A DNA stretch of 47,364 bases from a virus, in IMG/VR virus record IMGVR_UViG_3300021375_000049, positions 1 through 47,364 of that record; one strand, written 5' to 3'. The notes under the pieces were generated by a model. It was not told where the DNA came from, searched no databases, and worked only from the letters and a program-made list of their open reading frames with translations. A program made the translations under genes and the position numbers. Below are positions 27,101 to 45,328 of the stretch, one piece after another. Positions within the stretch are counted from its first letter, which is position 1. Every line of letters starts with the position of its first letter.

Positions 27101-30100
27101 AGACATGTAAATTATCAGAGCTTCGGTGTAATTGACATGCCAGCTCTATTTGGGCCGGACAGAGTATACAAGCCTAGTAAAAATGAATTAATTCATATAG
27201 CCAAAAGTGATAACGATGATTGGAATGTCTACAAACTCAGAGAACCAAAAGATTTAGGCGTAACTTTTGTAGAACAAGACGGTACTCCAGGAGCATATTT
27301 ATATACTACTGCTGACTTATTTGATTATGTTGATAGTAACCAATTACAACAAACAGATTTATCTAGATTCCTTGATTATACTCTCGTATTAAAACAAGCA
27401 AGAACATCAGAAGATGTAGTATTATGGACTAACCAAGAAGTTGTTGATAAAAAGTCTGCACTTATAAGAGACTTTGGTGCTATAACAATGCTACAAGCAA
27501 ACATAGATACTATAGGTGTAGGTGCGTCTTCACCTTTTTATAATAACTTTAGTAATATTTCTCCAGCAACAAGAGCTAAAATAGTTGGAGATGTTATACA
27601 AGCAGATGCTAATGGCACAGTAACTATGACAGCAAATGGTGGTAGCACTATACAAAACGGTGACAAACTATTACTTATAGACCCGTTGCATACTGAGGTT
27701 ACACACTCTGCAAATAGTTTATTACATTCAGATACAGCGAATGCTACATCTGGAAGTGCTAATGCAATTTTTGATAGTAAAATAACTATTACAGCAAGTG
27801 ACCCAGCAAACGTTAATAATATTGTGAGTAATATCACAATGATTGATTTATCGTTCTCAGGTAGTAACGTTGGTGACTTTACAGTTGATGAGGTTACTGA
27901 TATTAGGTATACAGCAAGTAATGTTGATTACGTGGCTGGTACATTTGACATACAGACAGACGACACAGTATTCCAATCTTATTTTGGTAATATAGCAAAT
28001 ACAACTATTACTGGTGTAACAAATTCATTAACAAGTATAGAATTTACAGTTCATGAACACAGTAACGTACATTTACAGACTGTGACAGCAAGTAACGTAA
28101 ATTTAAACAACGGTACTTATACGTTTAATCAGAGTAATGTTACTGCTAATGCAAGTAACATAGTAGGTAGACTACTTACAAAATGTGAACTTACTGTTCT
28201 TGACCATGGTTTTTATACAGGTGAAATTGTTAAAGTACTATCAAACAACATAAGAGGATATTACCAAGTTGAATCAGCAACGCAAGATGCATTTGTAATT
28301 AATGCACCGTATCATGCAAATCTAGATGTAACAGGACAAGTGTTGTCTAGAGGTTTACATATTAAAACTTCTGAACCGCATAACTTACCAGTGGGCTACA
28401 ATGGTAAACGTGTAATGATACACCAATCACAAAATCCATATTACAACCAAACATTTAACGTAGGATATGTAAAAAACGATACAGAAATTATAGTTGAAGA
28501 TGTATTTGCCTGGAATGCCACAGAAGATGATGTATCACCAACCTTTAATGCAACTGTAAATGGTGCAGTTGTAGATTCAAATTCAGTAAAACTCACTAGC
28601 CCACCAATAGAAATTGGCAGAAGATTTATTGTAACAGGAACAGGTATTACAGAAAGAGTTAGAGTAACTGACATCAGTAAAATGAATGTTACTGGTGTTA
28701 TTAAATTAGATAAAAAAGTTACATTAGATGATAGTACTGTATTGTCATTTGAAAAAGAATGTGTACTTACAACTTTAGACCATGACGTAATAAAATTAAA
28801 TAATACAAGTTTCAGAATAGATGACATAACAACACCGCAAGGTATTGTGGAATCTTTAAACAATACTCAGGCCGTAAAAGCAGGATTGGTAAACAAAAAA
28901 GGTAATACATTTGGTTTAGGTATACCAATGCTGAAAAAACCATACTTACCTGATGGTACTCCATACAGAGCATATGCAGGTAAAACACCTTACGTAAGAA
29001 ATGAAGAAGTAGACGCAAACTTATCCGCTGGTATGGATAAAATGGGACATATTAAGATTAAAAATCCACAAAATGCAGGATACAAACCATTTAATAAAGG
29101 CGCAGTAACAAGTTATATAGATCGTGGAACTGGATTCGAAGTCGACACTTCTCAAGGATTCGGAAATAGATCCCCATATGATAATTACGTGGCTAATCCA
29201 CAATACTTTGGTACTGGTGGTAACGTAGTAGACGGTCCTGATGTAAATGTGGGACAAACGTATAGTAATCAGGGACCTATTAATAATGGTGTAATAGATG
29301 TTCCAGTGTACACACCTAAAATTAACCAAAATATAGCACTAAACGATAATGGTCCAGGTACTCCAATATTTACAGGACAGGCTCTACAGGGTGCTCCAGA
29401 AAAACGTTGTGGACCAGATGCATGTGCCTCAACAAACAGAGCAGGAAGAGGAATACCACATTCTGTAATTAAAAATAACGGACCTATTACCTGGAATTCA
29501 CAAAACTGTGGTATAGAAAGTACAGGAACAATATCAGTATCGGGTACAGTAACAGGAACAGGCCATGGAAAAAGAAGTTGGACTAGTGGCTATTCAGGTT
29601 ATTATGGCCCTACAGGACAAACAGGTGGTACAGCTCTAGACTTTAGGAAAAGAGCTATTGCTGGTGCTCTTACATGGTCAGATAATGGTAGTACTCAGAG
29701 TTTCCAGGTACCATTTAAAGTAACAGAAAATGGTAAAATTTATGTACATGGTTATCAATCTGGTAAGGGTTTATTTGGTACTCATGGAGGACGAGATACA
29801 ACTTTTATCTCAGTAAGTGTAGTATCAGGTAATGCGACTATAGTAGGGTCGGGCACAGTAAAATGTAAGTATATGGGCGAAGGGTATCAACCTGCAAGTG
29901 GTGTAGGTGGTGTCATAGAAGTAGACATGTTAGCAGACTCAGAAATTTTAATCACAGGCACATGTAAAGGTGGAAGTAATCACTGGCATGGTTGTGAGAT
30001 GCATGTATCAGGAAAAAGAGATGGTCTTAATAAACAAAGTGAAAGAATTGTTGTAGGAGAAAACAATACAAGTACACAAACAGGTACACAATCAGGTAAT

Positions 30101-33100
30101 GGTGATTATGTAATATTTGACTACACTGATAAAATGGGACCGAATAAAACAGAAGAATTTTTATTCGAATCACCTGGTTCAGGCACAGCAACAATACTAT
30201 TCAATAATTATAGTGGTTCAGATGGTATTCAGGTATTCAGTGGCCCTAGTAAAGGCTCAGAAAATAATTTAGTTATAGAGTCAACATGGGGTAACCTGAG
30301 AAGACTTACTGACAATGAAAGACAAGAATTAAGAAATAAATTTGTGGTTTCAAGCACAGGTGCTTCATCATCCAATTATGCAAAAACAAATTACGATCAA
30401 TATGCTACCAAACAGAATGTTAAACCAAAGTCACCGCTGACTGGTCAAAAAATAGGTGTAGTTCATGCAGGTGCTATGGACTTTGATATACCTGCAGGTT
30501 CAGATAGATATATTAAAGTAGTAATACCAAAAGCAAGTTATGTATTTGATCATATTATTAAATTGCCTAATGCAACACCTCCACCAGACGACCCAGCAAC
30601 GGATCCAAACCCAACAGTACCATGCGGACAACAAACAAGCATGCCAACCGGTAATAATTCTAGCAGTGGTGGAAGTAGTAGTACTGGCCCCGGTGCAAAT
30701 ACATCTGGAACAGGAGCAAGTACAAGTAGCAATAATACAGGAACAACAACATCAGGAACTAATCCAAGTGGCGCATCAGGTGGTGCCGGTGGCGGTGGTG
30801 GCGGTGGTGGCGGTTATCAATATACTAAAAATTACGGAAATCCAATAAAAGCCGCCGTACGAGCATTTAACAGTTTAAGTAATAAACAAAAAATAACTCC
30901 TAAATGGAATTATCCAACTATAGCACAAACTTCTGGATTTTATAGATCACCAATGGCAGGAATGAGTTTTATTCCAAGCATTTACAGAAAAAAAGTTAAA
31001 ATGGTTGCAGGTACAGGGTATGGTTTACCTATATCATTAACAAGTGGTAGATATGTAAATAACCAGGTACAGAAAATCAGTGGCGGTTTTGTAGTGCCAT
31101 TAGCACAAAGGCTTACTAAAAATATTCCACTTAAAGCAAGACCATTAAGAAATTTAGATGCCGCAGAGTATCCTTATTATAATGTACTAGATGCAAATAA
31201 ATCAGCATTTGAAAAAGGTGGTATGTTCTATGATTGGAATCCTAAAAAAATTAGAGGCGACTACAAATTAGATGATGGTACGTTCTTAGATATTACTGGT
31301 GCAACATTAACTGGTGCAGATGTTGGATTAGGGTTAGGTAATTTATTATATTACTCAAATCCATATAATGGCACAGGAGTAGGCGGAGATACACCGGTTG
31401 ACACAATGCCGGTAACGCCCCCAGAAGAATTGGCTGAAGGACCAATTGAGTTAAATGATGACGACGTAATTTGGAACCCTAACTTTCAGATCACATTACA
31501 GCCAAAAATTAATGGTAATGTAGCAGGACCTAAAATTATTGTACCACTTTACAAACCAGTTCCAGGCCATACAATTGATACCAGTAACTTATCTGGGTTA
31601 AATCCAGAAGACACATTTAGTATTAATGGCAGAACGGTAGGACCTTTTAAAGGAACCAGTCCAGATGCAATATTAAAAGCAATTAATTGTGTGGATGCCA
31701 CAGGATTTGAAGCAACGCCATTAAGCAATGATTTAATCAGAATTAGTAGTTGTAGTAATGTACCTCTTACAATTAAAGAAGGTTGTTCAGGTGGCTTATA
31801 TAAAGAAGTTTTAGACTTTCATATTAATAGAGCATTTGTCTCACAAGAAATAAGTAACACATCCACAGTGGCCGCAACCACAAACATATTAGATGCAAAT
31901 GGTTCAGTTGTAGATACTGCTGTAAGTTATGCTCATTTAGATGTTTCAGGTGGTGTAGTTGGATATTCAAATGTAAGTGCAGGACAAGGTTATGTATCAT
32001 CAAGTAATGTTGTACAAACTGGTGGTAGTGGATACTCAGTTGGAGACAGATTAAGAGTAGTTGGTGGTACACCTATAAAAGATCCTTTTACTGGTGTCAA
32101 AGAGATATGTATTAAAAATTCTGGAGCCGGTTACAGTTTACCAGAAAATATTATTGTAACAATAGGAGATGGCTCTACACCAGGTAGAAACGCATTAGTA
32201 AAAAATGTAGTATTTGATAAAAACAACGGTATTAAAAAAGTAAACCTATATTCAGGTGGTGAAGAATTTGATGTAAACAGACCGCCAAAAGTTACAATTA
32301 TAGACACAGGTTCTATACCACAGCCACAAGATTATGCAAATACTCTTCAGAGAGGCGATTTTGTAAAATACACAGAATTTGAAATAAGTAACATAGACTC
32401 AATAGGTACTGTGGCAAGTAGTATTCCAGTAGGAAACACAATTATAACAGAGGCTGATAGCGGAGTTACTGTATCTGCAAACGCCAATAATATTGATGGT
32501 GTAAATGCCCGACTAAAAATTATTGTAACACAAACTGATGCAGGTGTCAAGTCTGCCACAGTAGAAGTTAAAAAAGGTGGAAGACATTGGTACATAGGAC
32601 AAACATTTACAATAAGACCTGATGTACTTGGTGGTACATCTAGTGATACTCCATTAACATTCCAGGTTGGCAATGTAAATCCATTATTACTAAAGTATGC
32701 TCAACTTAATCAAGACTCAGCCGGTATAGATACATTAGGTGATGCTCTAAGAGAAGGAATACTAACATTTAAGTCCGGATTCCTACAACCTCAACAAGCA
32801 GAATTAGAAGCAGTATTAGATAATAAGCCAGGCGGAAGAGTGCCTAGAGTTGCTAAATTTGAAGTTACAAGTGTTGACTACTATGGAACAGTTACAAGTG
32901 TTAAAATTTTAGACAGAGGTATATATAAAGTATTCCCAAGTGATCTGACAAATGGTCTCCCATTAGAATACGACCACATACTACTGGGCGATGAAGCAGG
33001 TTTTAACGATGACGGTACAGAATATGTTGGTGGATCAGGTTTAGGACAATTTGATCCTATAACACTAGACGCATTAAGTTCCCCAGGTGGTTATGATCCA

Positions 33101-36100
33101 ATAAACAATCTGCTTTTAGGTGGTGCTGGTGCTAAAATTTTCCTAACAGCCAGTGAGATACCAGATTGCTCACAACCAGGTAGTGCCAAAAGAGCATTGG
33201 GTTTACCAGATGTTATTGCAGATATTGATGCCGTTGCAGATTTTGGGTCTGCTATACAGGGTGCTATTGGAAACGCAGGTTATGGCCCAGATGATTTTAA
33301 TATAGATATTAATCCCATAAACGATTTAATTTCACAAATAGATCTTTCCAGCCCAATATATGACGGGATAGAGATAGGCGAAACAACTCCTGGGGTATTA
33401 GATTCATTAGGTTTACCTCCAGGTGATTATAACATTGCATCACTTTGTGTACATGCAGTTGTAGAAACAAAATTAAAAGAAGAAAACCAAGTTGTTGCAA
33501 ACAGATTGAATCAACTGGTAGATGATCTAGGTTTAGGTTTAGATACATCTGGACCTATAGATGTAATTAAATTACTTTGTGTTGATACTATTGGAAGTGG
33601 TGATGACGATAATGGACAAGACGGTATCAGTATATTTGGTGATGGAGACGTTGAGTTCCTAAGAGATTTGTTCCAGTACGAATTAAGAAGTCTTACAGGA
33701 GATCCTGTAAGGTTACTTTCTTCTGGAGTATCACAAGAAGCAGATATACTTTATTTAGAAAGTCAAAGATTTAGTGGAAATGCACAAATAAGTTCTGCAA
33801 ATACAAATTACCCTGAAATATCAAGTAACATTAGCTCATATGCAAATATCTGGATAGATAATTATAACGATACTGGTAAGTGGGCATATTTAGAAAATAG
33901 TACTATTATATCACAACAAGAAGATTTAACTGATACTAGATTTATAAACAAAATTATTACCTATAATGATGAATCAGGAATTAAACAAAACGATATACAT
34001 TTATTTGATCCGTTCAAAGGTATATTACCTGGATTTATAGAAAACGAAATCCATTTTATAGGTGAAAATGACCCTGTAGTTTATGATACTGCAAGAAGTA
34101 ATTTTTGTGATGATAAAATGATAGGTAAAGTTTGGTGGGATACTAGCACAATTAGATATAATTGGTATGAACAAGGTACAGCAAGAGATAGATGGCAAAA
34201 TTGGGGTAGCACATTCCCTGGAAGTAATGTATCAATTTATGAATGGGTTAAATCAGACCTACCACCTGCATCTTGGACTTTGAGTGGAACACCAAGGTCA
34301 CAATTTATAACAAAAACAGAGATTAATCCGAGTACAAATAAAGTTGTTACATATTACTATTTTTGGGTAAGAAATTATAAAACTTTACTAGATTTTGTTA
34401 GAGAAGAACAGGGAAGAAATTTTACAGCATTCGACTTAGCAAAATATATAGCCGATCCTGTAGGTTACGGTTTAAATCTTATAAGTTTTATAAATGATAA
34501 ATCATTTGTTATGAGTAATATAGCACATATATTAGATGATGATAATGATAACCTACAAATTAATTTTAGCAGAAATAAAAATCCAAATGGTAAGAAGCAC
34601 GACTCATGGTTACTAGCCAGACAAGGTGATAATAATAGCAAAATACCTGAAGATTTGTCACAAAAATTAATAGATAGTTTATGTGGATATGATGCACAGG
34701 GACAGGCAGTACCAGACAGAAATTTAAGTAATGTACAAAAATATGGTTCCTCATTTAGACCAAGACAGACATTCTTTAAGAATGTAAAAGATGCTAGAAA
34801 AGTAGCATTAGATTTCATAAATGACCTGTTTAAATCACTAAAAATGAATACAGAATATCAAGATTGGGATAATGATTTAGTAAGTTCTAGAAACTATATA
34901 TCAGTTGAAAATTGGTATGCTAAAAAATCAGTAGACCAAATTACTAATCTTCCAGAATATTATGATGATTCATATAAGCCTGTATACAGAGTTAATAGTG
35001 TAACAGAATTTAATACTCTATCAAATATTAGAGACGGTGTTGTAGTTCAAGTAAAAGGAAGTGATACTGACCGATCAAGACTCTTTGTGTACAACGGCAA
35101 TCTCAGAACATTTAAACTTATTAGTGTAGAAAATGAAATAATTCAATTAAAGGATGGTATATTTAATGATAACACAAATACAAGTCTAGATAAAGAATTA
35201 AGAAGTGTGTTACAGACAATAAAAGACAATAAGTTTAATAATGCTTCTCATTGGAACAAACTATTCTTCTTAATGCTGGAATATGCATACGGTGAGCATA
35301 GTGGATTAGATTGGGCGTTCAAAACAAGTTATGTTTTTGTAGAAAAAGAAGAAACAGACTTAATTAAGTTTGCTGGGTTTAAGCCTGATAATTTTGAGAA
35401 AGTTCTTGAATATATGAATGAAGTTAAACCTTATTCTAGCAAAATTAGAGAATATAAAGATGGTAAAAATCCTCCTTTAGAATATATTAAAGATCAAATG
35501 ATCAGTGATTACGATAAACCGCCTTATGCCGATTTTGCACAAGGTACTATCAGAATTTTAGATGAAAATGTAGATGCAGATTATAAATTTATGGCAAACA
35601 CAGCCGATTATGTTAAGTACCATAGTATAGCAAACAAAAACGAATCACCAATTAGGCAAACAAAAACAAGCATTGTGTTTGATAGAACAAACTGGCAACC
35701 AACACAATTCCAGTGGAACCCTAGTACTGAAAGTGCAAACAGCAGTATAGCAACTAATATTGCGTGGATAAAATCAGCAAGTAACTCAGATGTAAGCGGT
35801 AACTCCAATGTCAGATCTATAGATAGAATAATTAAATTTGATACCGATGTTAGTAATAAATTTACAAATGAGATGGAAATATACTTAACAGATCAGGGCT
35901 ATGTTGCAGGTTCTAGTGCAAATACTACTTTAATAAGTAATGCTACAATATTGCTAAATGCCATTGAGGCAGGATCATTAGACGGTACTTTAAATAGTGC
36001 TAGAAATAAAGTTGGTGGAAACTTTATAGGTGATATTTTAGATGCAAATGTATTTAGTAAAGTTGTTGATGGATATGATCCATCAACAGATTATCAAGAA

Positions 36101-36847
36101 TATTTTGGATATGATTCAGAAGCATTTGATACATTTAGTAACGATTTAAGTATAGAAGTTATAAATTATTCAGGTACTTTTGATAGCTCACTAGTAAACT
36201 TTAGACGAAACGACCAAACATATGAAGGATTTGATGGTGTAACATTTAGCAGAATGCTATATGGAGAAGACAGACCGGAAGAACTAATACAGATTGATCC
36301 AAAGGAAAATGTTTTAATTACAGTAACAACAAGTCCTTATGCTAATGCTGATGCAACTGGAAACATTGTAGTTGCAAATGCACAACCTATTACTTACAGA
36401 ATCCACAGAGCAATAGACGGTGAAAGCCATTTCCTAAGAGTAAGATCAAGTACTACATTGTCTGCTAACTTATTAATAAGTGACAGAAGTATAAGTGTAG
36501 CAAATGCTAGTGTATTACCTAGACCAACATTAGGAGTACCTGGTGTTATGTGGATAGAATCAGAAAGAATTACATATAAAGAAAGAGATATTATTAGTAA
36601 TACTATTAGTGATATTACAAGAGGAACAAAAGGTACTAGTGCTGAAAACTGGTATGTTACTGATGAAGCAGGAGCAACTATCACACTAAATGTTTATGAT
36701 GGATCTAGTAATCAAGAGTTTACAGACTTAGTTGGTACTCCGGAATCTAATACATTCTTTGACACAGGTGCTGTAAGTTTAACAGATTATAATAGTGCTA
36801 ATGCAAGTAGTATAACAAGCATAATGAAATTTTTACATGACAAATAA
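18170..36847 (+). CDS. Giant tail/baseplate structural protein (6225 aa) with a YHYH-type domain
   Basis: One uninterrupted frame of 18.7 kb in the position where T4 has gp7 to gp12. Features by approximate residue: GxGY beta repeats near 250, 290, 470, 610, 2600, 4620 and 4650 (for example NNAGSGYRRADLLTI); a Trp-rich block RPNTNPWEMLGF...PTWWD (1517-1537); a YHYH-type domain (about 1750-1885, GWAFDGLPIYGPYG); a cysteine-rich segment RCGPDACAS (3745); a Ser/Thr/Gly linker ending in nine glycines (about 4155-4215); GKVWWDTSTIRYNWYEQG (5318); and a tail-protein motif MWIESERITYKERD with RGTKGTS near 6130. The modular beta-rich make-up suggests a peripheral baseplate or fibre protein that contacts the host. 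I see no protease or cleavage signal. Confidence 0.85.
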   Translation: MADKLYKKLPEVLQTTAVKNFFDSTVEQLFSPANVETINGFIGKQDSDQHNVLGTFIRESTATRHHYSLTPAINTINANTGLSENFIFYDELVDNLKVNGVSTSNHNRLFSTNYSSFLPPIDIDKFINYQEYFWSNNDLRAITVSGSLTSPIDIDTDIIGKKSFVSANNVTLKNGMVINFSGEFVIPSNRSGIDYYVDGVGTSIRLIPRNQNVASGYATAVLTTWDNTIFTELDSNVKHTAGNITSVNIDNPGIGYLEPVISFTGANTTLATATANSNISGSITDVTVTGNGTGYSAPIGITISGTEVFTTLNVANTMVSFYNADKSTKRYSYNKIALDDSSNIFIGQNVLISGTDNTTVESLTNTSIVSIENISNSFDSSRTPGTYTTSGSTSGSGSGQNFRITVFDETEIQNIVNIDDQKPTWSGNATVVTARTNLTKTGLNATGGSGTGATFDVVYDGSQNVTVSINNAGSGYRRADLLTIAGNNIDGVSGPNLTFNVFEIEKPQGIHEVGNITLSNASISDTSFVVDMLDVPTAGNIATSGSGDDAIFNVAISSGSVSVDILDGGIDFSEGDTFTIYGNLFGSANSDTITFTIDNVLEPGDSFIELINGGTGHAVGDTITITDAQLGSGGGSDLTFDIAREGDILTVSEEVLLNQGSNLSLKFNGTGFIATVRTDMYSFTSNASGTFTSGISDMAISGVDPNTGDYYLGGAPDSSTDYGWDLDNDGDGDGDAVWGGRTSQGNPDYNVLKRGSVNRNIWSRVNFWHHKQNYIDAGMDVPSKEYRAKRPIIEFDHDIELYNHGKKFIGEVLVVEPVRQKSDIEGQAVSILIDGSPLPVGGTIIFPNETATISKYIYKVSHSNASISLSRVANLNENPVNAVDGDADFVALEFTEGDVVNIKAGEQNIGSEWYWKDNILQKAQQKLNLHQAPLFNIYNDEGNFLGDTDTYTNTDFVGNKIFNYKIGSGAKDTILNTSLSFKQYYNSSEIQFENFLETENVKYLKDNISTTVPGYYYYKKDKTSPEFHNLWKEGQNKSKQNINTFYYIDRFNLDNKDLNYFIGCEPKVNNNYPSGYEITVKINDKIVSNYAYTQKGLIKFDSFDFKQDDVIEISAYTDNNIISERTISKYELPLSWDHNTQKFDIENISKPEFLEHFSNYVKNTSGLIGESLGSNNFKDLSTNPSDALDIVKTDEDLILGSFLLNDSSYNLQDAINFCHKEYVAYKNRLISEIQKYFNSTDTSDLTNEFILDKVLQNVISFSVGKDVFQRTYTIPFGDNYVTEEKIINTLNDTSFTPTKYIDLSKIENSILVYKVTGTQTDLLEIDKDYTISSTTTSNTFTPTSSLNLQLADRLIFKIYDKERDSAECPATPSVLGLYPLTQPVIETDNSFQTPIEVVIGHDGSKTPTVGNKLDEILLEFETRIYNSAKKEFRDANSLPELNVFSVRAGKFRDTNFTNNEWYDLMRTNFNTWNIKNNTDFVTNEFYDSNNEWTWNYRSASAIPGHWRGWYEYYYDTVRPNTNPWEMLGFTEKPTWWDTQYITTTYTDYSSNNTPMWEDLELGLIRQGPRENLSGNEYKDLENNPCARPGLKDVLPVDSSGNLKSPYDIDSTGATTITKTYNETVSNTSLDYKTTSYLVTDGLSVYFDSSNVYVSSKNISNYSIDKIGTLAGEQPIKSITSAYSIPQVNLNSITLSNTSMQNGATGVLTNGQPIYNPSNATSFEGDGNWTYNAGFLEKQAREEGIIAHTDNNGLVHTHVPTVEMSNTEVWGNSTTHSGIVGWAFDGLPIYGPYGYSSYHANGSVNDNSITNVKSSFELKPGSRSSHPGGTHTGLFLEDYQYSASLASQNGTAGKFNTRYGTTPESPSTPIRFYVTTIDDNGEPMFPYAVGGGTKTDNTYNGEYYATPQDLSNNRKGIAPTPSSVTTAIRSTYTETQTNDGSINEIWRFGDGAPVENAWKYSSSYPFAVVLALFLSKPGKFARAFADPTALINTKLGPKSFRVEKSSRKTWNYKNQDHFKIHGTYDENRNFITNIGYSQFIRSWLKFQNYDVTTNFKDVLTTLNTKISHRMAGFVDGDTATVKTDQFSTTGNASSIIIPVENRQLSIHDSGNKTRNNYTGVIIEKTLNGYKVKGYDPTLLYFNILESDKTQEKQSITRGGKPVSYTNWQSNKYYPLGTIVNYLGAYYKAKINVPENSSFVSSQWDRLPSLPQEGGATGIIYNRSTGIEKRVDYGKEYTSDQDVFDLLVSIGRYQKSIGYDFGDYDESINSVKDWVYAAEQFLFWVTGGWEIGNTLELSPCAGRIIFSKEQEAISEIKRLDRGQFSILDQDSSVIDPKECDIIREGNNFEIRPPVGKQIFSITLFTKQIEHILSIDNISDFNDTYYNDLINQRIRRIKIKGRRTLGWEGRLSSEGFIIDGPELQPNLDNITATMANYHNIGFIPVDKQIYNASRSLIGFSNKKYLTELGIDDDDQVEFYKGMIQSKGTLNSISKILNSNAIVQGNVNIYDEWALKAGSFGDLDNNQSIELKLSKQDIVQDPQLFTLEFPEDITGLVKEIVITERNASYYETPLIELGVPSTSPKKQATAVATLSSDGTINSISITEPGSGYVQENTTLTVLASNLNVTSNTYTFNYVSAVSTGLFPQANTTGIANITIIDHFASNTSAQTIDLSSATEVANVVTAINSQGVTNANIVATSIETYNASSNTSSFVLQITGSDFSLGGSGLANLNLATQRYQPRQRFGFTIANNTTVDNVIVSVDSTVVPRVEGNVTYWEYDAGDRFGTTTSTLTTSGTYDVNIASLTGMINSSSILANENTALVEGIYPYVDVYVNGTKLENTVDQNQYSIPNNTTVRILDVTNLEEGNIAPNSNIYIVEKATIDFTDDYQGDVPASNLSIKVQSNEGFSVQIASKRIYDITPDIKNDEIITIDIDDKHRFLKKPAGIRTNEIWPLVSNVDYTGVKDTDFTKIPNAGYVDRRHVNYQSFGVIDMPALFGPDRVYKPSKNELIHIAKSDNDDWNVYKLREPKDLGVTFVEQDGTPGAYLYTTADLFDYVDSNQLQQTDLSRFLDYTLVLKQARTSEDVVLWTNQEVVDKKSALIRDFGAITMLQANIDTIGVGASSPFYNNFSNISPATRAKIVGDVIQADANGTVTMTANGGSTIQNGDKLLLIDPLHTEVTHSANSLLHSDTANATSGSANAIFDSKITITASDPANVNNIVSNITMIDLSFSGSNVGDFTVDEVTDIRYTASNVDYVAGTFDIQTDDTVFQSYFGNIANTTITGVTNSLTSIEFTVHEHSNVHLQTVTASNVNLNNGTYTFNQSNVTANASNIVGRLLTKCELTVLDHGFYTGEIVKVLSNNIRGYYQVESATQDAFVINAPYHANLDVTGQVLSRGLHIKTSEPHNLPVGYNGKRVMIHQSQNPYYNQTFNVGYVKNDTEIIVEDVFAWNATEDDVSPTFNATVNGAVVDSNSVKLTSPPIEIGRRFIVTGTGITERVRVTDISKMNVTGVIKLDKKVTLDDSTVLSFEKECVLTTLDHDVIKLNNTSFRIDDITTPQGIVESLNNTQAVKAGLVNKKGNTFGLGIPMLKKPYLPDGTPYRAYAGKTPYVRNEEVDANLSAGMDKMGHIKIKNPQNAGYKPFNKGAVTSYIDRGTGFEVDTSQGFGNRSPYDNYVANPQYFGTGGNVVDGPDVNVGQTYSNQGPINNGVIDVPVYTPKINQNIALNDNGPGTPIFTGQALQGAPEKRCGPDACASTNRAGRGIPHSVIKNNGPITWNSQNCGIESTGTISVSGTVTGTGHGKRSWTSGYSGYYGPTGQTGGTALDFRKRAIAGALTWSDNGSTQSFQVPFKVTENGKIYVHGYQSGKGLFGTHGGRDTTFISVSVVSGNATIVGSGTVKCKYMGEGYQPASGVGGVIEVDMLADSEILITGTCKGGSNHWHGCEMHVSGKRDGLNKQSERIVVGENNTSTQTGTQSGNGDYVIFDYTDKMGPNKTEEFLFESPGSGTATILFNNYSGSDGIQVFSGPSKGSENNLVIESTWGNLRRLTDNERQELRNKFVVSSTGASSSNYAKTNYDQYATKQNVKPKSPLTGQKIGVVHAGAMDFDIPAGSDRYIKVVIPKASYVFDHIIKLPNATPPPDDPATDPNPTVPCGQQTSMPTGNNSSSGGSSSTGPGANTSGTGASTSSNNTGTTTSGTNPSGASGGAGGGGGGGGGYQYTKNYGNPIKAAVRAFNSLSNKQKITPKWNYPTIAQTSGFYRSPMAGMSFIPSIYRKKVKMVAGTGYGLPISLTSGRYVNNQVQKISGGFVVPLAQRLTKNIPLKARPLRNLDAAEYPYYNVLDANKSAFEKGGMFYDWNPKKIRGDYKLDDGTFLDITGATLTGADVGLGLGNLLYYSNPYNGTGVGGDTPVDTMPVTPPEELAEGPIELNDDDVIWNPNFQITLQPKINGNVAGPKIIVPLYKPVPGHTIDTSNLSGLNPEDTFSINGRTVGPFKGTSPDAILKAINCVDATGFEATPLSNDLIRISSCSNVPLTIKEGCSGGLYKEVLDFHINRAFVSQEISNTSTVAATTNILDANGSVVDTAVSYAHLDVSGGVVGYSNVSAGQGYVSSSNVVQTGGSGYSVGDRLRVVGGTPIKDPFTGVKEICIKNSGAGYSLPENIIVTIGDGSTPGRNALVKNVVFDKNNGIKKVNLYSGGEEFDVNRPPKVTIIDTGSIPQPQDYANTLQRGDFVKYTEFEISNIDSIGTVASSIPVGNTIITEADSGVTVSANANNIDGVNARLKIIVTQTDAGVKSATVEVKKGGRHWYIGQTFTIRPDVLGGTSSDTPLTFQVGNVNPLLLKYAQLNQDSAGIDTLGDALREGILTFKSGFLQPQQAELEAVLDNKPGGRVPRVAKFEVTSVDYYGTVTSVKILDRGIYKVFPSDLTNGLPLEYDHILLGDEAGFNDDGTEYVGGSGLGQFDPITLDALSSPGGYDPINNLLLGGAGAKIFLTASEIPDCSQPGSAKRALGLPDVIADIDAVADFGSAIQGAIGNAGYGPDDFNIDINPINDLISQIDLSSPIYDGIEIGETTPGVLDSLGLPPGDYNIASLCVHAVVETKLKEENQVVANRLNQLVDDLGLGLDTSGPIDVIKLLCVDTIGSGDDDNGQDGISIFGDGDVEFLRDLFQYELRSLTGDPVRLLSSGVSQEADILYLESQRFSGNAQISSANTNYPEISSNISSYANIWIDNYNDTGKWAYLENSTIISQQEDLTDTRFINKIITYNDESGIKQNDIHLFDPFKGILPGFIENEIHFIGENDPVVYDTARSNFCDDKMIGKVWWDTSTIRYNWYEQGTARDRWQNWGSTFPGSNVSIYEWVKSDLPPASWTLSGTPRSQFITKTEINPSTNKVVTYYYFWVRNYKTLLDFVREEQGRNFTAFDLAKYIADPVGYGLNLISFINDKSFVMSNIAHILDDDNDNLQINFSRNKNPNGKKHDSWLLARQGDNNSKIPEDLSQKLIDSLCGYDAQGQAVPDRNLSNVQKYGSSFRPRQTFFKNVKDARKVALDFINDLFKSLKMNTEYQDWDNDLVSSRNYISVENWYAKKSVDQITNLPEYYDDSYKPVYRVNSVTEFNTLSNIRDGVVVQVKGSDTDRSRLFVYNGNLRTFKLISVENEIIQLKDGIFNDNTNTSLDKELRSVLQTIKDNKFNNASHWNKLFFLMLEYAYGEHSGLDWAFKTSYVFVEKEETDLIKFAGFKPDNFEKVLEYMNEVKPYSSKIREYKDGKNPPLEYIKDQMISDYDKPPYADFAQGTIRILDENVDADYKFMANTADYVKYHSIANKNESPIRQTKTSIVFDRTNWQPTQFQWNPSTESANSSIATNIAWIKSASNSDVSGNSNVRSIDRIIKFDTDVSNKFTNEMEIYLTDQGYVAGSSANTTLISNATILLNAIEAGSLDGTLNSARNKVGGNFIGDILDANVFSKVVDGYDPSTDYQEYFGYDSEAFDTFSNDLSIEVINYSGTFDSSLVNFRRNDQTYEGFDGVTFSRMLYGEDRPEELIQIDPKENVLITVTTSPYANADATGNIVVANAQPITYRIHRAIDGESHFLRVRSSTTLSANLLISDRSISVANASVLPRPTLGVPGVMWIESERITYKERDIISNTISDITRGTKGTSAENWYVTDEAGATITLNVYDGSSNQEFTDLVGTPESNTFFDTGAVSLTDYNSANASSITSIMKFLHDK
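30788..30814 (+). repeat. Nine-codon poly-glycine microsatellite in the giant gene
   Basis: Three copies of GGTGGCGGT encode nine glycines (residues 4207-4215) at the end of a Ser/Thr/Gly-rich linker. A perfect GC-rich 9-mer repeat is unusual in this AT-rich genome and could vary in length by slippage. Confidence 0.85.
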
Positions 36848-40478: not shown

Positions 40479-40507
40479 AAAGCCAGTTCATAGTAACTGG
40501 CTTTTTT
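40479..40507 (+). terminator. Rho-independent terminator after the virion genes
   Basis: AAAGCCAGTT and AACTGGCTTT form a 10-bp stem around CATAGT, followed by a T run. It is nearly identical to the terminator at 40845-40873. Confidence 0.9.
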
Positions 40508-40509
40508 AT

Positions 40510-40517
40510 GATAAATA
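40510..40517 (+). promoter_or_regulatory. Late-type box GATAAATA in front of the riboswitch cassette
   Basis: GATAAATAATTATT lies directly after the terminator, so the cassette needs its own promoter. The predicted start is near 40523, 18 bases before the first aptamer. Confidence 0.65.
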
Positions 40518-40540
40518 ATTATTGAGTAACATTTACTCAT

Positions 40541-40601
40541 CGTTCATTCACTCTAAATGTAGCAGTGAACGGAAGTAGTCAAGTAGACGAAGGAACGCAT
40601 C
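40541..40601 (+). promoter_or_regulatory. Glutamine riboswitch, first aptamer (glnA / Downstream-peptide class)
   Basis: The conserved core of the glutamine aptamer is readable. P1 is CGTTC (40541-40545) with GAACG (40593-40597). P2 is TTCACT (40547-40552) with AGTGAA (40564-40569). Then come CGGAAGTA (40570-40577), P3 GTC/GAC around AAGTA, the conserved GAAG (40589-40592) and CATC after P1. This matches the published glnA/Downstream-peptide pattern of cyanobacteria and marine phages. A second complete copy follows two bases later. Confidence 0.85.
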
Positions 40602-40603
40602 TT

Positions 40604-40654
40604 CGTTCATCTGGAAACAGACGGAAGTAGGTGATTATACCGAAGGAACGCATC
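40604..40654 (+). promoter_or_regulatory. Glutamine riboswitch, second aptamer (tandem copy)
   Basis: P1 is CGTTC (40604-40608) with GAACG (40646-40650). P2 is TCTG-GAAA-CAGA (40610-40621), closed by a GNRA tetraloop. The core is CGGAAGTA (40622-40629), P3 is GGT/ACC (40630-40632 with 40639-40641), followed by GAAG and the 3' CATC. The P2 and P3 sequences differ from those of the first aptamer while the pairing and core are kept, which supports a real RNA structure rather than a simple DNA repeat. Confidence 0.88.
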
Positions 40655-40667
40655 TCATATGGAGATG
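40651..40667 (+). promoter_or_regulatory. Hairpin over the ribosome binding site: putative expression platform
   Basis: CATCTC (40651-40656) can pair with GAGATG (40662-40667), hiding the GGAG (40661-40664) of the peptide gene. The 5' arm includes the conserved CATC at the end of the second aptamer. Ligand binding that holds CATC in the aptamer would free the ribosome site, i.e. an ON switch. That direction is inferred. Confidence 0.6.
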
Positions 40668-40671
40668 TTAA

Positions 40672-40833
40672 ATGACTAAGTATCAAGAATCAGTACAAAT
40701 CAAACGTGCTGTAAGAAGAACACTTAAGAATAAAAAAGTTGTAGCAAGCCTATTGCAATTCCCTCATGTTGAAAAGCAAAAGAAGGATAGTGAATGGCCA
40801 GCATATATAACAGACAATCCGTTTTATCCTTAA
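40672..40833 (+). CDS. Small basic peptide under glutamine-riboswitch control
   Basis: A 53-residue protein starting MTKYQESVQIKRAVRRTL and ending AYITDNPFYP. It is rich in Lys/Arg (11 against 5 acidic residues), with the positive charge concentrated in a predicted N-terminal helix (residues 5-30). GGAG lies seven bases before the ATG. It is the only gene between the two terminators, so it is the sole target of the tandem riboswitch. Genes downstream of this riboswitch class are typically short; in cyanobacteria one such product is a glutamine synthetase inactivating factor, which is also small and basic. I see no clear sequence match to IF7/IF17, so the analogy is only a hypothesis. Confidence 0.8.
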   Translation: MTKYQESVQIKRAVRRTLKNKKVVASLLQFPHVEKQKKDSEWPAYITDNPFYP

Positions 40834-40844: not shown

Positions 40845-40873
40845 AAAGCCAGTTCATAGTATCTGGCTTTTTT
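40845..40873 (+). terminator. Rho-independent terminator closing the riboswitch cassette
   Basis: AAAGCCAG and CTGGCTTT form an 8-bp stem followed by a T run. Over 29 bases it differs from the terminator at 40479-40507 at a single position. Confidence 0.9.
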
Positions 40874-40892: not shown

Positions 40893-41252
40893 ATGAGTAC
40901 ACGTTTGACAAAAGCCTTAGAGTTTGCTAATTATCGTACCACTTTAAATAATCAGCAGGCACAACTAAAAGCAAAAACACAAAGTTTATTAAGTTATAGT
41001 ATTAATGGTGGTACATTTACTATAGATATACCCCTAATTACATTCTGTAAACAACTGTTAGATGACGGTCAAAAAGACGTTGTACTATTAGATATTTATA
41101 AAAACCCAATTCAGGTAGAAGTTACTTCATTTTATGACGAAATATCAAGTAGATATTATGAAGTAACAAATGATTATTATGCTGAATATGAAAAATTAAG
41201 AAAATCTAGAAAAGTACACAAAGTTTTGGACCTAAATGAAGAAGGAAAGTAA
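40893..41252 (+). CDS. Hypothetical protein of marine T4-like phage type
   Basis: A 119-residue protein with an N-terminal helix (TKALEFANYRTTLNNQQAQL), a strand block (SINGGTFTIDIPLITFCKQL; VVLLDIYKNPIQVEV) and a helical, charged C-terminus (DYYAEYEKLRKSRKVH). I recognise the general pattern from marine T4-like phages but know no function. It has no membrane segment. No ribosome site is visible; the start codon coincides with the predicted transcript start. It overlaps the next gene by 17 bases. Confidence 0.7.
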   Translation: MSTRLTKALEFANYRTTLNNQQAQLKAKTQSLLSYSINGGTFTIDIPLITFCKQLLDDGQKDVVLLDIYKNPIQVEVTSFYDEISSRYYEVTNDYYAEYEKLRKSRKVHKVLDLNEEGK

Positions 41253-42138
41253 TAGTCGCGGAGTATTAATGTTCGCACATAACAACACGGAGATTGATTA
41301 CTTCCGTTTGGCTGTGGTAAATGCATTACTGGTACAGAAGAATTTAGGTATTAAAAACATTACTGTAGTCACAGATCCACATAGTTTAGCACAAGGCGAA
41401 AAAACTTTAGGTAAAAGATTAATTAAGAAAGCAATTAATAATATTATTGTAATTGAAAAAAATAAAAAATTTAAAAATACAAATGTTAGATTATATAAAG
41501 ATACTAGTCATAGTGTAAAAAATTTATCATTTTATAATGTAAACAGGTGTGATGCATATGATATTTCACCTTATGATGAAACAATATTACTTGATGTTGA
41601 TTATTTAATATTAAGTGATACATTAAATCAGTGTTGGGGTCATAATAATGAACTAATGATGAACTGGAAATTTCAGGACATAATGTATGAACGCAAAGAC
41701 CCCTCATTAAATAGGTTAAACCATTTAGGTATAACAATGTATTGGGCAACTGTGGTTTACTTCCGCAAAACAGAATATGCTGAAAGTTTTTTTAATTTCG
41801 TCAAACATGTAAAAAACAATCCGCAATATTATCGAGACTTATATCAGTGGCAAGGTACTCTATACAGAAACGATTACAGTTTCTCTATTGCCGCTCATAT
41901 GATGTCAGGTTTTACTGATAAAGGAATACCACAGTTGCCTACTACTCTTTACAAGAGTTTTGATACTGATGATATACATAGTGCTGTAGATAAAAATACA
42001 ATTATTATGTATTTGGAAAAACCCAAAAGCCCGGGCGATTTTATTTTAACAAAATGGCAAGACATAGACTTACATATAATGAATAAATGGGCAATAAATA
42101 GAATTAGTAATGAACTAATAGGATATGCAAATGGCTAA
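41236..42138 (+). CDS. Glycosyltransferase-like protein (GT-A type), paralogue of 42800-43666
   Basis: A 300-residue protein with SRGVLMFAHNNTEIDYFRLA at the N-terminus and YDISPYDETILLDVDYLILS in the middle. The DVD (120-122) after a hydrophobic strand is the nucleotide-sugar/metal-binding motif of GT-A glycosyltransferases. The protein at 42800 repeats the same plan (SRGYIVIAQNN; SPYDETVILDTDM), so the pair is paralogous. I keep the upstream ATG because SRG is shared by both proteins, although an ATG at 41269 has a better ribosome site (GGAG at 41260-41263). The sugar donor and acceptor are unknown; virion or host-glycan modification is likely. Confidence 0.7.
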   Translation: MKKESNSRGVLMFAHNNTEIDYFRLAVVNALLVQKNLGIKNITVVTDPHSLAQGEKTLGKRLIKKAINNIIVIEKNKKFKNTNVRLYKDTSHSVKNLSFYNVNRCDAYDISPYDETILLDVDYLILSDTLNQCWGHNNELMMNWKFQDIMYERKDPSLNRLNHLGITMYWATVVYFRKTEYAESFFNFVKHVKNNPQYYRDLYQWQGTLYRNDYSFSIAAHMMSGFTDKGIPQLPTTLYKSFDTDDIHSAVDKNTIIMYLEKPKSPGDFILTKWQDIDLHIMNKWAINRISNELIGYANG

Positions 42139-42361
42139 AAAATACATACACGTTAATCAACACAAGATTAGAAGTAATTTAAAACACGGAACAAATGAGC
42201 CTGTGATAACAATTAAAGAAGGTAAGAGTAATACTTACTGTCACGAAGTAGAAGTTAAAGGCCCTAGCAAAGTTATATACGGAGAGGAAGGCAAAAAGTT
42301 ATTGTCTTGTGGTGCAAGAGTAGTAATAGAAACAGAGAGCGATATAGAGATAGTAAGATGA
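42131..42361 (+). CDS. Small conserved hypothetical protein
   Basis: A 76-residue beta-rich protein (MAKKYIHVNQHKIRSNLKHG; VIYGEEGKKLLSCGARVVIE). I recognise it as a type that recurs in marine T4-like phages, without known function. The ATG at 42131, with AGGA seven bases upstream, is preferred to an in-frame ATG at 42125. Both ends overlap their neighbours (8 bases upstream, ATGA downstream), so it is translated as part of the glycosyltransferase cluster. Confidence 0.75.
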   Translation: MAKKYIHVNQHKIRSNLKHGTNEPVITIKEGKSNTYCHEVEVKGPSKVIYGEEGKKLLSCGARVVIETESDIEIVR

Positions 42362-42807
42362 AGGCTAGATATTACATATTAGCAGGTATAGTTTACACAT
42401 TGCTTATAGGCTTTACTGCAAGTGCAATCCAAGGTAGAATTACAAGTGAAGCAATTAAAGACCAATGTTTTATAGATGGTTGTACAAAAGTATATGAATT
42501 CACAGGTGAAGTTGGTGGCGAGGAATGGGAAGAATTAATTGTTATTGCTGAAGAGTACCAAGAAGAAGCAGAGATGTGGAAAGCCGATGCTGAAGCAAAA
42601 TGGGAAAGTGATGAGAACCCATACTATAATGCAGGTAGTGATTCAGATGCTGACGCATACATAAATCTATTTTTTATGTTATCAGATCCTATTAATTGGA
42701 TATTCACATTGATAATTGCTACATTTATAGCAGGTTTCTATTTAGCATTTTACAGTTGTAAACTTGCTATAGAAAGATATTTTAAAGGTAACAATACTGA
42801 TGAGTAG
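42358..42807 (+). CDS. Two-pass membrane protein of unknown function
   Basis: A 149-residue protein with one hydrophobic segment at each end: about 6-24 (YILAGIVYTLLIGFTASAI) and about 114-134 (WIFTLIIATFIAGFYLAFYS). Between them is an acidic, Trp/Glu-rich domain of about 85 residues with a cysteine pair (CFIDGC, 37 and 42). If the segments form a hairpin, the acidic domain lies on one side of the membrane. I start at 42358, in the ATGA overlap with the preceding gene; a longer upstream frame has no support. Possible roles are a membrane anchor for the neighbouring transferases or a holin/superinfection-type factor; neither is shown. Confidence 0.7.
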   Translation: MKARYYILAGIVYTLLIGFTASAIQGRITSEAIKDQCFIDGCTKVYEFTGEVGGEEWEELIVIAEEYQEEAEMWKADAEAKWESDENPYYNAGSDSDADAYINLFFMLSDPINWIFTLIIATFIAGFYLAFYSCKLAIERYFKGNNTDE

Positions 42808-43666
42808 AGGTTACATAGTAATAGCACAAAACAACGACACAACTGATTATTTAGAGCAGGCGTATGCACTTGCTCTCAATTTAAAACTAACACAGAGCAC
42901 GATCAATAGTCTGACAGTATGTGTAGACGCTAAAACTAAAAAACTTATCAGAGCTAAACATAAAGAAGTTTTTGATAATATAGTAGATATACCCTGGCAA
43001 GACGATGCCAAAGATGCAGAATGGAAAATTAATAACAAGTGGAAATACTATTATATGAGCCCGTATGACGAAACTGTTATACTAGACACTGATATGATAT
43101 TCCCTACTGATGTTAGTTATTGGTGGGACATTATGTCACAACGTGATGTATGGGCAACTACTAAAGTTAGAACATATAGAGGTGAGGTTGCCACGGGAGA
43201 CTATTACAGAGAATGGTTTACAGCAAACAACTTACCAAATGTTTATACAGCATTTTTTTATTTTAAAAAGAGTGAACTAGCAAGTGAATTATTTGCTATG
43301 GTAGAAATAATATTCCAACATTGGCAACGTATGTTTTTTAAATATATGCCTAAAGGTAAGCCAGATTGGCTAAGTGGAGATGTAGCATTTGCACTAGCAA
43401 TGAAAATTTTAGGGATAGAACAAAAGTGTATAAGAGAAAATATTGATACTGTACCTACTTTTGTACATATGAAAAGTCATGTGCAAAATATTGTAGGTGT
43501 TTCTATTAGTGATACTTGGTCTGAAACATTGCCAACATATTATAATAGTTATAATGACTTTAAAATTGGAAACTTTAAACAGTTAATGCCTTTTCATTAT
43601 GTAGAAAAAGATTGGCTTAGTGCTGATAAAATCAAACAATTTGAGAAAGATTATGGCATTAAGTGA
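42800..43666 (+). CDS. Glycosyltransferase-like protein (GT-A type)
   Basis: A 288-residue protein with an N-terminal Rossmann-type start (SRGYIVIAQNNDTTDYLEQA) and the motif MSPYDETVILDTDMI, where DTD (96-98) is the expected metal/nucleotide-sugar site. A later GDVAFALAMKILG resembles the acceptor-side helix of GT-A enzymes. It is a paralogue of the protein at 41236. It overlaps the membrane protein by 8 bases and the next gene by 14. The products probably glycosylate a virion protein or alter a host surface glycan; the target is unknown. Confidence 0.75.
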   Translation: MSRGYIVIAQNNDTTDYLEQAYALALNLKLTQSTINSLTVCVDAKTKKLIRAKHKEVFDNIVDIPWQDDAKDAEWKINNKWKYYYMSPYDETVILDTDMIFPTDVSYWWDIMSQRDVWATTKVRTYRGEVATGDYYREWFTANNLPNVYTAFFYFKKSELASELFAMVEIIFQHWQRMFFKYMPKGKPDWLSGDVAFALAMKILGIEQKCIRENIDTVPTFVHMKSHVQNIVGVSISDTWSETLPTYYNSYNDFKIGNFKQLMPFHYVEKDWLSADKIKQFEKDYGIK

Positions 43667-44306
43667 AGCAGAAAAAAGGCGTAGGCGGTTTTTAAAAGAA
43701 AAAAATAAATTTGGTAGTTTTAATGAACTTGTAAAACATCATAATAATAGAGACCAAACTGTTTGGTTCGATTTGGAAGGGAATATATTACAAATTAGTG
43801 CTGAACAAAAAAGGAAAAAAACTGTAAAAGAACGTAGTGTAGTTTTTACTAATGAACAATTAAAAATACTACAAGATAAAGATGTAAATTTATACAGAAT
43901 AGTACAAGATGCGGAAATAGAAACTGTTTTTAGTATAGAGCTTAAACCACTTGAAAGTCCTTTTGTAGAACATGAAAAAGATTTCTTACAACTTATACCA
44001 GAGTCTAAAAGTAAAACATTTGATATAAGTGTAAAGTATAGTAAAGGAAACTTCACTGTAAAACCTCATGTTAAAATTTTAAAAAAATATAAAGAAATAG
44101 ACAGTAGTATTGCTACTGCTAATGGAAAAAAAGTACTAAAATTTTATTTCACCAGTAAAAATGATCCACATTTTATGGTAAAAACTGTAAATATTCTACT
44201 ATCAGAATTATTAGATAAAAAGTCAGTAACAAAAAAGATTAATAAAAACCTTGATCAATGTAGTATATATACCATTAAAGTATTTGATAAATATGTGTGT
44301 ATTTAA
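43653..44306 (+). CDS. Hypothetical protein, lysine-rich
   Basis: A 217-residue basic protein with a strongly charged N-terminal helix (EAEKRRRRFLKEKNKFGSFN) and a beta-rich remainder (FTVKPHVKILKKYKEI; KVLKFYFTSKNDPHFMVKTV). No enzyme motif or membrane segment is seen. I use the ATG at 43653, preceded by GAGAAAG; an upstream GTG frame at 43620 lies inside the preceding gene. It overlaps the glycosyltransferase by 14 bases. Its last codons contain a late promoter box for the next gene. Confidence 0.65.
   Translation: MALSEAEKRRRRFLKEKNKFGSFNELVKHHNNRDQTVWFDLEGNILQISAEQKRKKTVKERSVVFTNEQLKILQDKDVNLYRIVQDAEIETVFSIELKPLESPFVEHEKDFLQLIPESKSKTFDISVKYSKGNFTVKPHVKILKKYKEIDSSIATANGKKVLKFYFTSKNDPHFMVKTVNILLSELLDKKSVTKKINKNLDQCSIYTIKVFDKYVCI
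44286..44293 (+). promoter_or_regulatory. Late promoter box GATAAATA inside the end of the preceding gene
   Basis: The predicted transcript start is near 44299, with CAGGA (44318-44322) in the leader before the ATG at 44330. An overlapping hairpin is described under 44294-44328. Confidence 0.5.
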
Positions 44307-44328
44307 GAATTTAAATTCAGGACACACA
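44294..44328 (+). promoter_or_regulatory. Nested hairpin around the ribosome site of the 44330 gene
   Basis: TGTGTGT (44294-44300) pairs with ACACACA (44322-44328), enclosing the perfect palindrome GAATTTAAATTC (44307-44318) and confining the AGGA. Most of its 5' arm lies upstream of the start predicted from the late box, so only read-through RNA would form it fully. Confidence 0.45.
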
Positions 44329-44329
44329 G

Positions 44330-45328
44330 ATGGCAAAAATAGACGTTACAGAACTAGACATATTCTATATTTCATATGATGAGCCCAATTGCGAAGAACA
44401 CTGGGCAGACTTATTAAATAAAGTACCTTGGGCTAAAAGAGTCCATGGTGTTAAAGGCTTTGATGCCGCTCACAAAGACGCCGCAAGGCAATCCGAAACC
44501 GACCGCTTTATCACAGTAGATGGTGATAACATTGTTATGGATGATTTCTTTGAGCAAGTACTTGAAGTACCTGAAACTGATCATGACGGTAATGATATAT
44601 CAGAAAGTATATTCAGTTGGAATGCCAAGAACATTCTAAACGGATTAGTATATGGAAATGGTGGACTTAAATGTTGGCCCACACAATATGTATTAGATAT
44701 GAAAACCCACGAAGCGGCTGACGATGACGAAGGCATGGAGTTTTGTTGGAAATTAAATTACATACAACTTAGTGATACTTTTAGTGAGGTACATCAAACT
44801 GCTTCACCATTCCAAGCATTTAGAGCCGGCTTTAGAGAAGGTGTTAAAATGAGTTTGGATCAAGGCACTAAAGTTAATGCATACGAGTTTAAAGAAAAAA
44901 TTTGGTGGCAAAATTATAATAGACTGCAAACATGGTGTAACATAGGCAGTGATGTAGACAATGGCTTATGGGCTATCTACGGAGCAAGACTAGGTTGTGA
45001 AATGACTGTGCTAAGTGATTGGGATACTAATCAAATATCAGATTACGATTGGTTTAGAGACTTCTTTGATAATTCAATATTACCTCGTTTTCCAGGAGAT
45101 GAAGTTTGCAGTTATACTAAAGTAGCATGGAATAAAGAAATGTTAGAAATAGCAATAAAGGATATAGGTGTAAAACTAAATGAAAGTGTAAACTCGATGA
45201 TGTTATTTGATCCCAATCCTAAAATGTGTGAGTTTTTTAAAACAACTTATGTAAATCCTAGGCGTTGGGGTGTAATGATTCGAGAAAAACAAATTCAAGA
45301 ATTACTGGAAAAAGGATTGATACAGTAA
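44330..45328 (+). CDS. Glycosyltransferase-like protein common in marine T4-like phages
   Basis: A 332-residue protein beginning with a strand block LDIFYISYDEPNCEEHW and RVHGVKGFDAAHKDAA, followed by TDRFITVDGDNIVMDDFF. DGD (64-66) after a hydrophobic strand is in the position of the DxD site of GT-A transferases. I recognise this type from marine T4-like phages, where it is usually left as hypothetical or putative glycosyltransferase. The C-terminal half is Trp-rich and helical. It is joined to the next gene by TAATG. Confidence 0.65.
   Translation: MAKIDVTELDIFYISYDEPNCEEHWADLLNKVPWAKRVHGVKGFDAAHKDAARQSETDRFITVDGDNIVMDDFFEQVLEVPETDHDGNDISESIFSWNAKNILNGLVYGNGGLKCWPTQYVLDMKTHEAADDDEGMEFCWKLNYIQLSDTFSEVHQTASPFQAFRAGFREGVKMSLDQGTKVNAYEFKEKIWWQNYNRLQTWCNIGSDVDNGLWAIYGARLGCEMTVLSDWDTNQISDYDWFRDFFDNSILPRFPGDEVCSYTKVAWNKEMLEIAIKDIGVKLNESVNSMMLFDPNPKMCEFFKTTYVNPRRWGVMIREKQIQELLEKGLIQ

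Follow-up and report, generated by a model that had tools for sequence, protein, structure and literature searches.

A tandem type 1 glutamine riboswitch with candidate aptamer coupling precedes a conserved 53-residue protein in a probable marine jumbo phage

The glnA RNA was reportedly described by Weinberg in 2010, and a type 1 glutamine riboswitch by Klahn in 2018 in the gifB leader of Synechocystis. Reports of tandem glnA RNAs date back to 2010 (PMC2864571), and glutamine riboswitches are known in cyanophages and in the phages Mosig and Melnitz (PMC9004378, PMC9964418), where the Melnitz switch has been linked to regulation of tmRNA (ssrA) (PMC9004378). Type 1 and type 2 switches stand before DUF4278 genes in cyanobacteria, where glutamine activates, and type 2 (Downstream-peptide) RNAs have been reported as limited to marine picocyanobacteria (PMC6316151). 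The solved structure of the aptamer shows that, when glutamine binds, G23 enters the base of P1 and pairs with C60 (PMC11477058). The aptamer class, the tandem form, the presence in marine phages and the control of small ORFs in cyanobacteria are all already known.

We analysed a 47,364-base IMG/VR virus record, hereafter the window. A cmscan search of the whole window against Rfam 15 returned two matches to RF01739 (gathering score 35 bits) and nothing else from Rfam, each match covering the full model (positions 1-53) at an E value of about 9e-11. Both copies carry the P1 helix CGUUC/GAACG, the CGGAAGUA core and GAAGGAACGC, and in the cmscan alignments both form a P1-P2-P3 three-way junction with CGGAAGTA and GAAGGAACGC in which every pair is standard. 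The P2 and P3 sequences are unlike between the copies, with pairing kept in both. A sequence-only reading of this DNA had placed two tandem glutamine aptamers of a phage at 40541-40654, with a conserved P1 and core and changed but paired P2 and P3, and had proposed an Rfam search; the aptamers, the coordinates (correct within two bases) and the conservation pattern all stand, and the two high-scoring matches are both to the glnA model. Its spacing of two bases was loose, as the model matches abut and six bases (CATCTT) separate the P1 helices. Its assignment to the Downstream-peptide class falls away: RF01704 stayed below the gathering threshold across the whole window, and the type 2 class was dropped. 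No further glutamine aptamer was found elsewhere in the record. Judged by these matches, the locus belongs to the type 1 glutamine riboswitches (glnA, RF01739) and has its aptamers in tandem.

Table 1. Features of the riboswitch cassette (window coordinates)
Feature	Position	Strand	Details
Intrinsic-terminator-like hairpin	40479..40504	+	AAAGCCAGTTCATAGTAACTGGCTTT and T-run; 10-pair stem; ends the upstream gene's unit
T4-late-promoter-like octamer	40510..40517	+	GATAAATA; placed by position; putative promoter
7-bp hairpin	40523..40539	+	TGAGTAA-CAT-TTACTCA; predicted transcript 5' end; read from sequence
Glutamine aptamer 1	40539..40601	+	RF01739, 59.6 bits
Aptamer 1 parts		+	P1 40541-40545/40593-40597; long P2; core CGGAAGTA at 40570
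tail1	40598..40603	+	CATCTT; linker behind aptamer 1 P1
Glutamine aptamer 2	40602..40654	+	RF01739, 59.6 bits
Aptamer 2 parts		+	P1 40604-40608/40646-40650; P3/L3 GGTGATTATACC 40630-40641
Shine-Dalgarno-sequestering hairpin	40651..40667	+	CATCTC-ATATG-GAGATG; Shine-Dalgarno GGAG 40661-40664
53-aa ORF	40672..40833	+	MTKYQESVQIKRAVRRTLKNKKVVASLLQFPHVEKQKKDSEWPAYITDNPFYP; conserved family alignment
Terminator-like hairpin behind ORF	40845..40873	+	AAAGCCAGTTCATAGTATCTGGCTTTTTT; located by exact search

The layout of the cassette is given in Table 1. The upstream hairpin was the sole terminator-scan match in the region, and the hairpin behind the ORF is a near-copy of it whose longer loop exceeds the loop limit of the scan. 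The 7-bp hairpin has a folding energy of about -5.4 kcal/mol. Since a terminator-like hairpin and the octamer precede the aptamers and the near-copy hairpin follows the ORF, the unit of terminator-like hairpins, octamer, aptamers, ribosome-binding site and ORF looks self-contained. The earlier description of one tiny gene between terminators is borne out, in that the 53-aa ORF and the terminator-like hairpins on both sides of it are real.

An indication of how the switch acts comes from the Shine-Dalgarno helix. In the window the six bases past aptamer 2 P1 (CATCTC, tail2) pair with GAGATG, which overlaps the Shine-Dalgarno sequence; in relatives the helix reads CATCT/AGATG, CAATCT/AGATTG, CACC/GGTG, CACTC/GAGTG or CATTTT/AGAATG. 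Across 19 distinct combinations in tandem relatives, 100% of the cells are paired. In a fixed-register test the covariation was reached by none of 500 shuffles and slid registers were far worse, and a tree-based analysis showed concerted change at the third pair, where each of three changes (3/3) altered both sides on the same branch. This covariation is drawn from related sequences. An all-pairs scan with a tree-based null also placed the Shine-Dalgarno pair among the top signals, together with many lineage-linked pairs, and for this reason the fixed-register tests were relied upon. The hairpin of the window has a pairing probability of 0.99-1.0, and loss of the CA of tail2 weakens it from -5.8 to -2.1 kcal/mol. 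As the helix covaries perfectly across the tandem relatives, the output of the riboswitch is, by this comparison, translational. The RF01739 pair sits in a leader with a plausible expression platform, namely a covarying Shine-Dalgarno helix followed by an ORF under apparent purifying selection (below).

A second candidate helix may connect the two aptamers. The five bases past aptamer 1 P1 (tail1) match the P3/L3 of aptamer 2 in most tandem loci, in the pairings CATTA/TAATG, CATTG/CAATG, TATTA/TAATA and CATCT/TGAT. On the tree, both sides of this tail1:L3 helix changed together on a single branch three times each at tail positions 4 and 5, and once at tail position 1. In the fixed register, slid registers and shuffles fell short of the observed value, with the 9 double-change cells reached by none of 500 shuffles and the covariation by one of 500. 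Concerted changes at three positions are difficult to reconcile with two independent aptamers, for which the tail1:L3 match would reflect shared ancestry and A+T-rich loops and the second copy would only broaden or steepen the response. Tail1 does find 4-5-base runs in the P3 of its own aptamer in 24 of 53 sequences with such tails, as expected for independence given that the sequences are A+T-rich; five-pair runs, on the other hand, fall in aptamer 2 P3 in 37/53 and in aptamer 1 P3 in 3/53. Independence also draws support from the window itself, where the register holds three Watson-Crick pairs only (A40599-U40635, U40600-A40634 and C40601-G40633) with the first C of tail1 unpaired, and from the tandem classes that lack the complementarity, about 13 of 65 distinct tandem sequences fitting poorly (tails CCGAA, CCACA and CACTG, and one short-P3 case). 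Covariation in the majority of relatives speaks for physical coupling through this helix, but the window has only a weak version of it and a minority of tandems lack it. We consider independent aptamers unlikely and tail1:L3 a supported candidate for an inter-aptamer coupling helix. The sharpened or cooperative response proposed for the tandem pair is plausible.

Two other pairings involving the aptamers were considered. A swap of P1 strands between them has a negligible RNAfold probability (0.002) and was rejected. The minimum-energy fold contains a 7-bp alternative stem between GACGAAG of aptamer 1 and tail1 plus the P1 strand of aptamer 2; this stem is invariant within the CATCTT class, so that covariation is uninformative for it. 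Different wiring of the same tail is seen in marine alphaproteobacterial tandems before amt, glnA and an ATP-grasp gene (L216-L335, e.g. L224, L217 and L228), where tail1 (CATGC...AGTTAT) is complementary to ATARCT...GCATG past aptamer 2, forming a stem that encloses aptamer 2. Separately, the long P2 of the window (40546-40569) is conserved in four further loci (L133, L189, L205 and L259) as TTCACTCTAAATGTAGCAGTGAA or a relative with CTCTAAATGTAGAG. It occupies aptamer 1 of some tandems, and aptamer 2 of those lacking the tail1:L3 pairing, and might serve for docking through its CUA-AAUG-UAG tip.

The solved aptamer suggests how ligand binding could reach these helices. By our numbering, C60 corresponds to the base with which each tail begins (C40598 for aptamer 1, C40651 for aptamer 2), and the expected partner of C40651 upon glutamine binding is G40624. 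Because C40651 also starts the Shine-Dalgarno helix, ligand and output helix would compete for it. In the mechanism that we propose, the 3' tail of each aptamer would be its output strand. Without glutamine, tail2 would mask the Shine-Dalgarno sequence and tail1 would engage aptamer 2; bound glutamine would draw the first tail base into the G23-C60 linchpin below P1 and weaken the tail helix. Binding to aptamer 1 would then free aptamer 2 and binding to aptamer 2 would free the Shine-Dalgarno sequence, giving a sharpened glutamine-ON switch. We infer the ON direction, the cooperativity and the function of the peptide. RNAfold, which has no ligand or tertiary terms, leaves the Shine-Dalgarno hairpin closed in every state and favours a structure without either P1 (-42.2 versus -33.3 kcal/mol); that it does not display switching may be expected, as those terms are absent.

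The opposite polarity would arise if the ligand-stabilised P1 of aptamer 2 stacked on the Shine-Dalgarno hairpin, so that protein was made when glutamine is scarce. The two helices do adjoin and coexist in RNAfold, and in marine bacteria amt and glnA lie behind tandems of this class, a setting that would suit glutamine repression. The amt and glnA leaders, however, differ in sequence past aptamer 2 and therefore have another platform, and ligand binding takes the first base of the Shine-Dalgarno helix (PMC11477058). The reported activation by glutamine of type 1 as well as type 2 switches upstream of DUF4278 genes (PMC6316151) likewise speaks against an OFF switch, and the weakening of the hairpin when CA is removed fits that activation. 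We regard a glutamine-OFF switch as unlikely and continue with the glutamine-ON reading.

The regulated protein belongs to a family, here called A, in which dN/dS was below 1 in all 11 pairs compared (about 0.1-0.5); by this measure it is conserved and under purifying selection. It had no Pfam or PHROG match and no significant match to known structures, and AlphaFold2 predicted one confident N-terminal helix (residues 3-28) with the rest at low confidence. Searches of cultured phages with two family members as tblastn queries found no relatives, and blastn of the leader gave chance matches only. The 53-aa ORF represents an undescribed family that, among the matches listed, is found almost only behind tandem aptamers. 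Identity with DUF4278 or IF17-type regulators was rejected, as there was no Pfam match, the family A profile did not match DUF4278-type viral ORFs, and a YRGVRY stretch is all that appears, in a few relatives. Kinship to SAR86 peptides ending ...FFPYYL was also rejected, with no profile match and only short shared motifs. The protein may possibly act in nitrogen assimilation, a tentative assignment suggested by the glutamine control and by the DUF4278-type proteins in equivalent positions; it could adjust host nitrogen assimilation in the manner of the cyanobacterial glutamine-synthetase inactivating factors.

Related leaders are widespread. The viral tandem-aptamer pattern found 96 stretches and two complementary patterns added 2 and 14, for about 112 viral stretches with tandem glutamine aptamers. 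The notability attached to a tandem pair in the sequence-only reading was accordingly overstated, tandem glnA RNAs having been known in 2010 (PMC2864571). A looser single-aptamer pattern gave at least 120 viral stretches, about 23 of those listed being tandem (known tandem contigs and five looser ones), and 41 viral records, some longer than 220 kb, hold exactly one glutamine-aptamer locus apiece, single or tandem. Almost every viral locus among the matches listed precedes a very small ORF of about 27-78 aa, from family A (that of the window, MTKYQ...NPFYP), family B (W[TS]xYC), DUF4278-type YRG proteins or several more. The arrangement is tandem at 54 of 55 family A loci and 29 of 30 family B loci among the matches listed, ratios that are biased, since the tandem scan is complete and the count from the single-aptamer pattern is a lower bound. 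A 78-aa viral family (..NRAWLLQWLPPRWCHYLV) stands under single glutamine aptamers at L121, L152, L181, L190 and L201; one member searched against cultured phages had no match.

Bacterial genomes yielded at least 120 stretches with the tandem pattern. Among the matches listed, tandems in alphaproteobacterial single-cell genomes precede ammonium transporters, glutamine synthetase and a circularly permuted ATP-grasp gene, and those in SAR86-type gammaproteobacteria precede glutamine synthetase, DUF4278-type ORFs and small ORFs. DUF4278-type ORFs lie behind aptamers at several viral and SAR86/SAR92 loci. At one SAR86 locus (L259, on a 73,813-base contig) family A itself is chromosomal with the same tandem leader as the window, sharing the 23-base P2 of aptamer 1 and the CATCTT linker, with a peptide of the form ...YVTDNPFYP. 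This cassette is near ilvB, ilvN and ilvC, beside a quinone-reductase-like gene and a 5'-nucleotidase, and two further loci (L222 and L275) resemble it. A second SAR86-type small-protein family of 52-54 aa, ending ..FFPYYL, also lies behind tandem aptamers (L220, L252, L253, L269, L283, L297 and L328) and is chromosomal, as the L253 contig is 482 kb long.

Viral and bacterial copies differ upstream of the aptamers. An octamer, defined as [TGC]ATAAATA or CTAAATA and lying no more than 60 bases upstream of aptamer 1, occurs at 113 of 153 distinct viral loci among those listed, against 7.3 expected from shuffling, and at 5 of 111 bacterial loci among those listed, against 11 expected. Viral octamers mostly end 5-8 bases before P1; in the window the additional 5' hairpin widens this gap to 23 bases. 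Further copies of GATAAATA start upstream of the ORFs at 36884 (13 bases), 39425 (39 bases) and 44330 (44 bases), and the octamer was not over-represented across the window (10 found, 17 expected). Since its count is not above chance, the support for a promoter is position and not frequency, and we interpret GATAAATA as a putative T4-like late promoter. The transcript would begin at this promoter, and the protein would be produced late in infection when glutamine is plentiful. The octamer, which most viral copies have at a fixed spacing and bacterial copies do not, argues against a passenger host cassette that is transcribed with no benefit to the phage, as do the purifying selection on the protein and the recurrence of the unit in many different phage contigs. 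The same cassette does occur in SAR86 chromosomes and there is one locus per viral contig, as a passenger might show; we nonetheless find this highly improbable.

The surroundings point to the type of phage. Upstream genes match a baseplate wedge protein, a tail lysozyme hub and tail-fibre-like proteins (Pfam and PHROG), and 41236-45328 had no informative Pfam or PHROG match; the tail portion of a proposed tail/glycan region therefore stands and the glycan portion does not. A single ORF of 6225 codons (18170-36847) adjoins the baseplate and tail-fibre genes. The baseplate wedge protein (36-37% identity) and a gp46-like nuclease (53%) are nearest to those of jumbo phages, namely PA5oct and relatives (Pseudomonas), Salicola SCTP-2, Agrobacterium Atu_ph07 and Sinorhizobium Phosso, and megablast found no near DNA relative of the window among cultured phages. 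The gene psbA was absent from 16 related viral records, which are fragments of up to 228 kb, the window being a 47-kb fragment. The lack of psbA in these contigs, the jumbo-phage kinship of the structural and recombination genes and the presence of the same cassette in SAR86 chromosomes make a cyanophage reading, and the cyanobacterial setting implied earlier, unlikely. The window is probably a fragment of a marine jumbo myovirus whose host, as suggested by gene kinship and the SAR86 cassette, is probably SAR86 or a related gammaproteobacterium. SAR86 or a relative appears to be the most likely source of the cassette and the likely host group.

Collectively, we favour, with moderate confidence, a tandem type 1 switch with two coupled aptamers that acts on translation, is turned on by glutamine and controls a late 53-aa protein in a marine jumbo myovirus. 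The aptamers, the Shine-Dalgarno helix, the tail1:L3 covariation and the conserved protein come from sequence comparison, and to these the model adds a promoter, a host and a mechanism that we infer. More doubtful, as a joint proposal, is a two-stage relay in marine phage and SAR86-like tandems, in which tail1 would pair with L3 as tail2 pairs with the Shine-Dalgarno sequence and each ligand state would set the next step, with a host cassette behind a phage late promoter and a small protein that would adjust the nitrogen metabolism of the host late in infection.

In the open-licence literature searched we found no report of the tail1:L3 covariation, of a phage late-promoter link, of a family A cassette shared by phages and SAR86 or of the breadth of small-ORF families, and we provisionally regard these, along with the translational output and the undescribed family of the 53-aa ORF, as new. 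If real, the tail-to-loop helix would offer a simple way for two aptamers to talk, using the same strand that serves as the output of a single aptamer. Glutamine riboswitches were described as cyanobacteria-restricted in a 2018 review; our survey indicates a wide spread in marine proteobacteria (amt, glnA and small ORFs) and their phages, the latter coupling the switches to late promoters and to unstudied protein families of about 30-80 aa. Concrete candidates are thereby available for the means by which marine viruses sense, and may also change, the nitrogen status of their hosts.

Compared with known systems, the locus is like the type 1 glnA RNA (RF01739) in its aptamer consensus, in the reported tandem copies and in controlling a small ORF; it differs in lying in a jumbo phage, and also in SAR86-like bacteria, and in its 53-aa family without DUF4278. 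Phage-borne RF01739 is shared with Pelagibacter phage Mosig EXVC030M and OM43 phage Melnitz (PMC9004378). In Mosig the switch follows a CATAAATA octamer, and immediately after it comes a 51-aa ORF whose ribosome site can pair with the tail, but there is a single aptamer and another small-protein family. That ORF, Mosig_00116 (L336:2407-2632), is related to a riboswitch-controlled viral family (...DPRLQKI), and in Mosig this ORF, instead of the tmRNA considered for Melnitz, may be what is regulated. The type 2 Downstream-peptide RNA (RF01704) is likewise a glutamine aptamer before very small ORFs, but has no match in the window. The tandem glycine riboswitch also combines, within a single leader, two aptamers that bind the same amino acid and feeds one platform through known inter-domain contacts; its aptamer is a different one, and the corresponding contact in the window is a predicted tail-to-loop helix.
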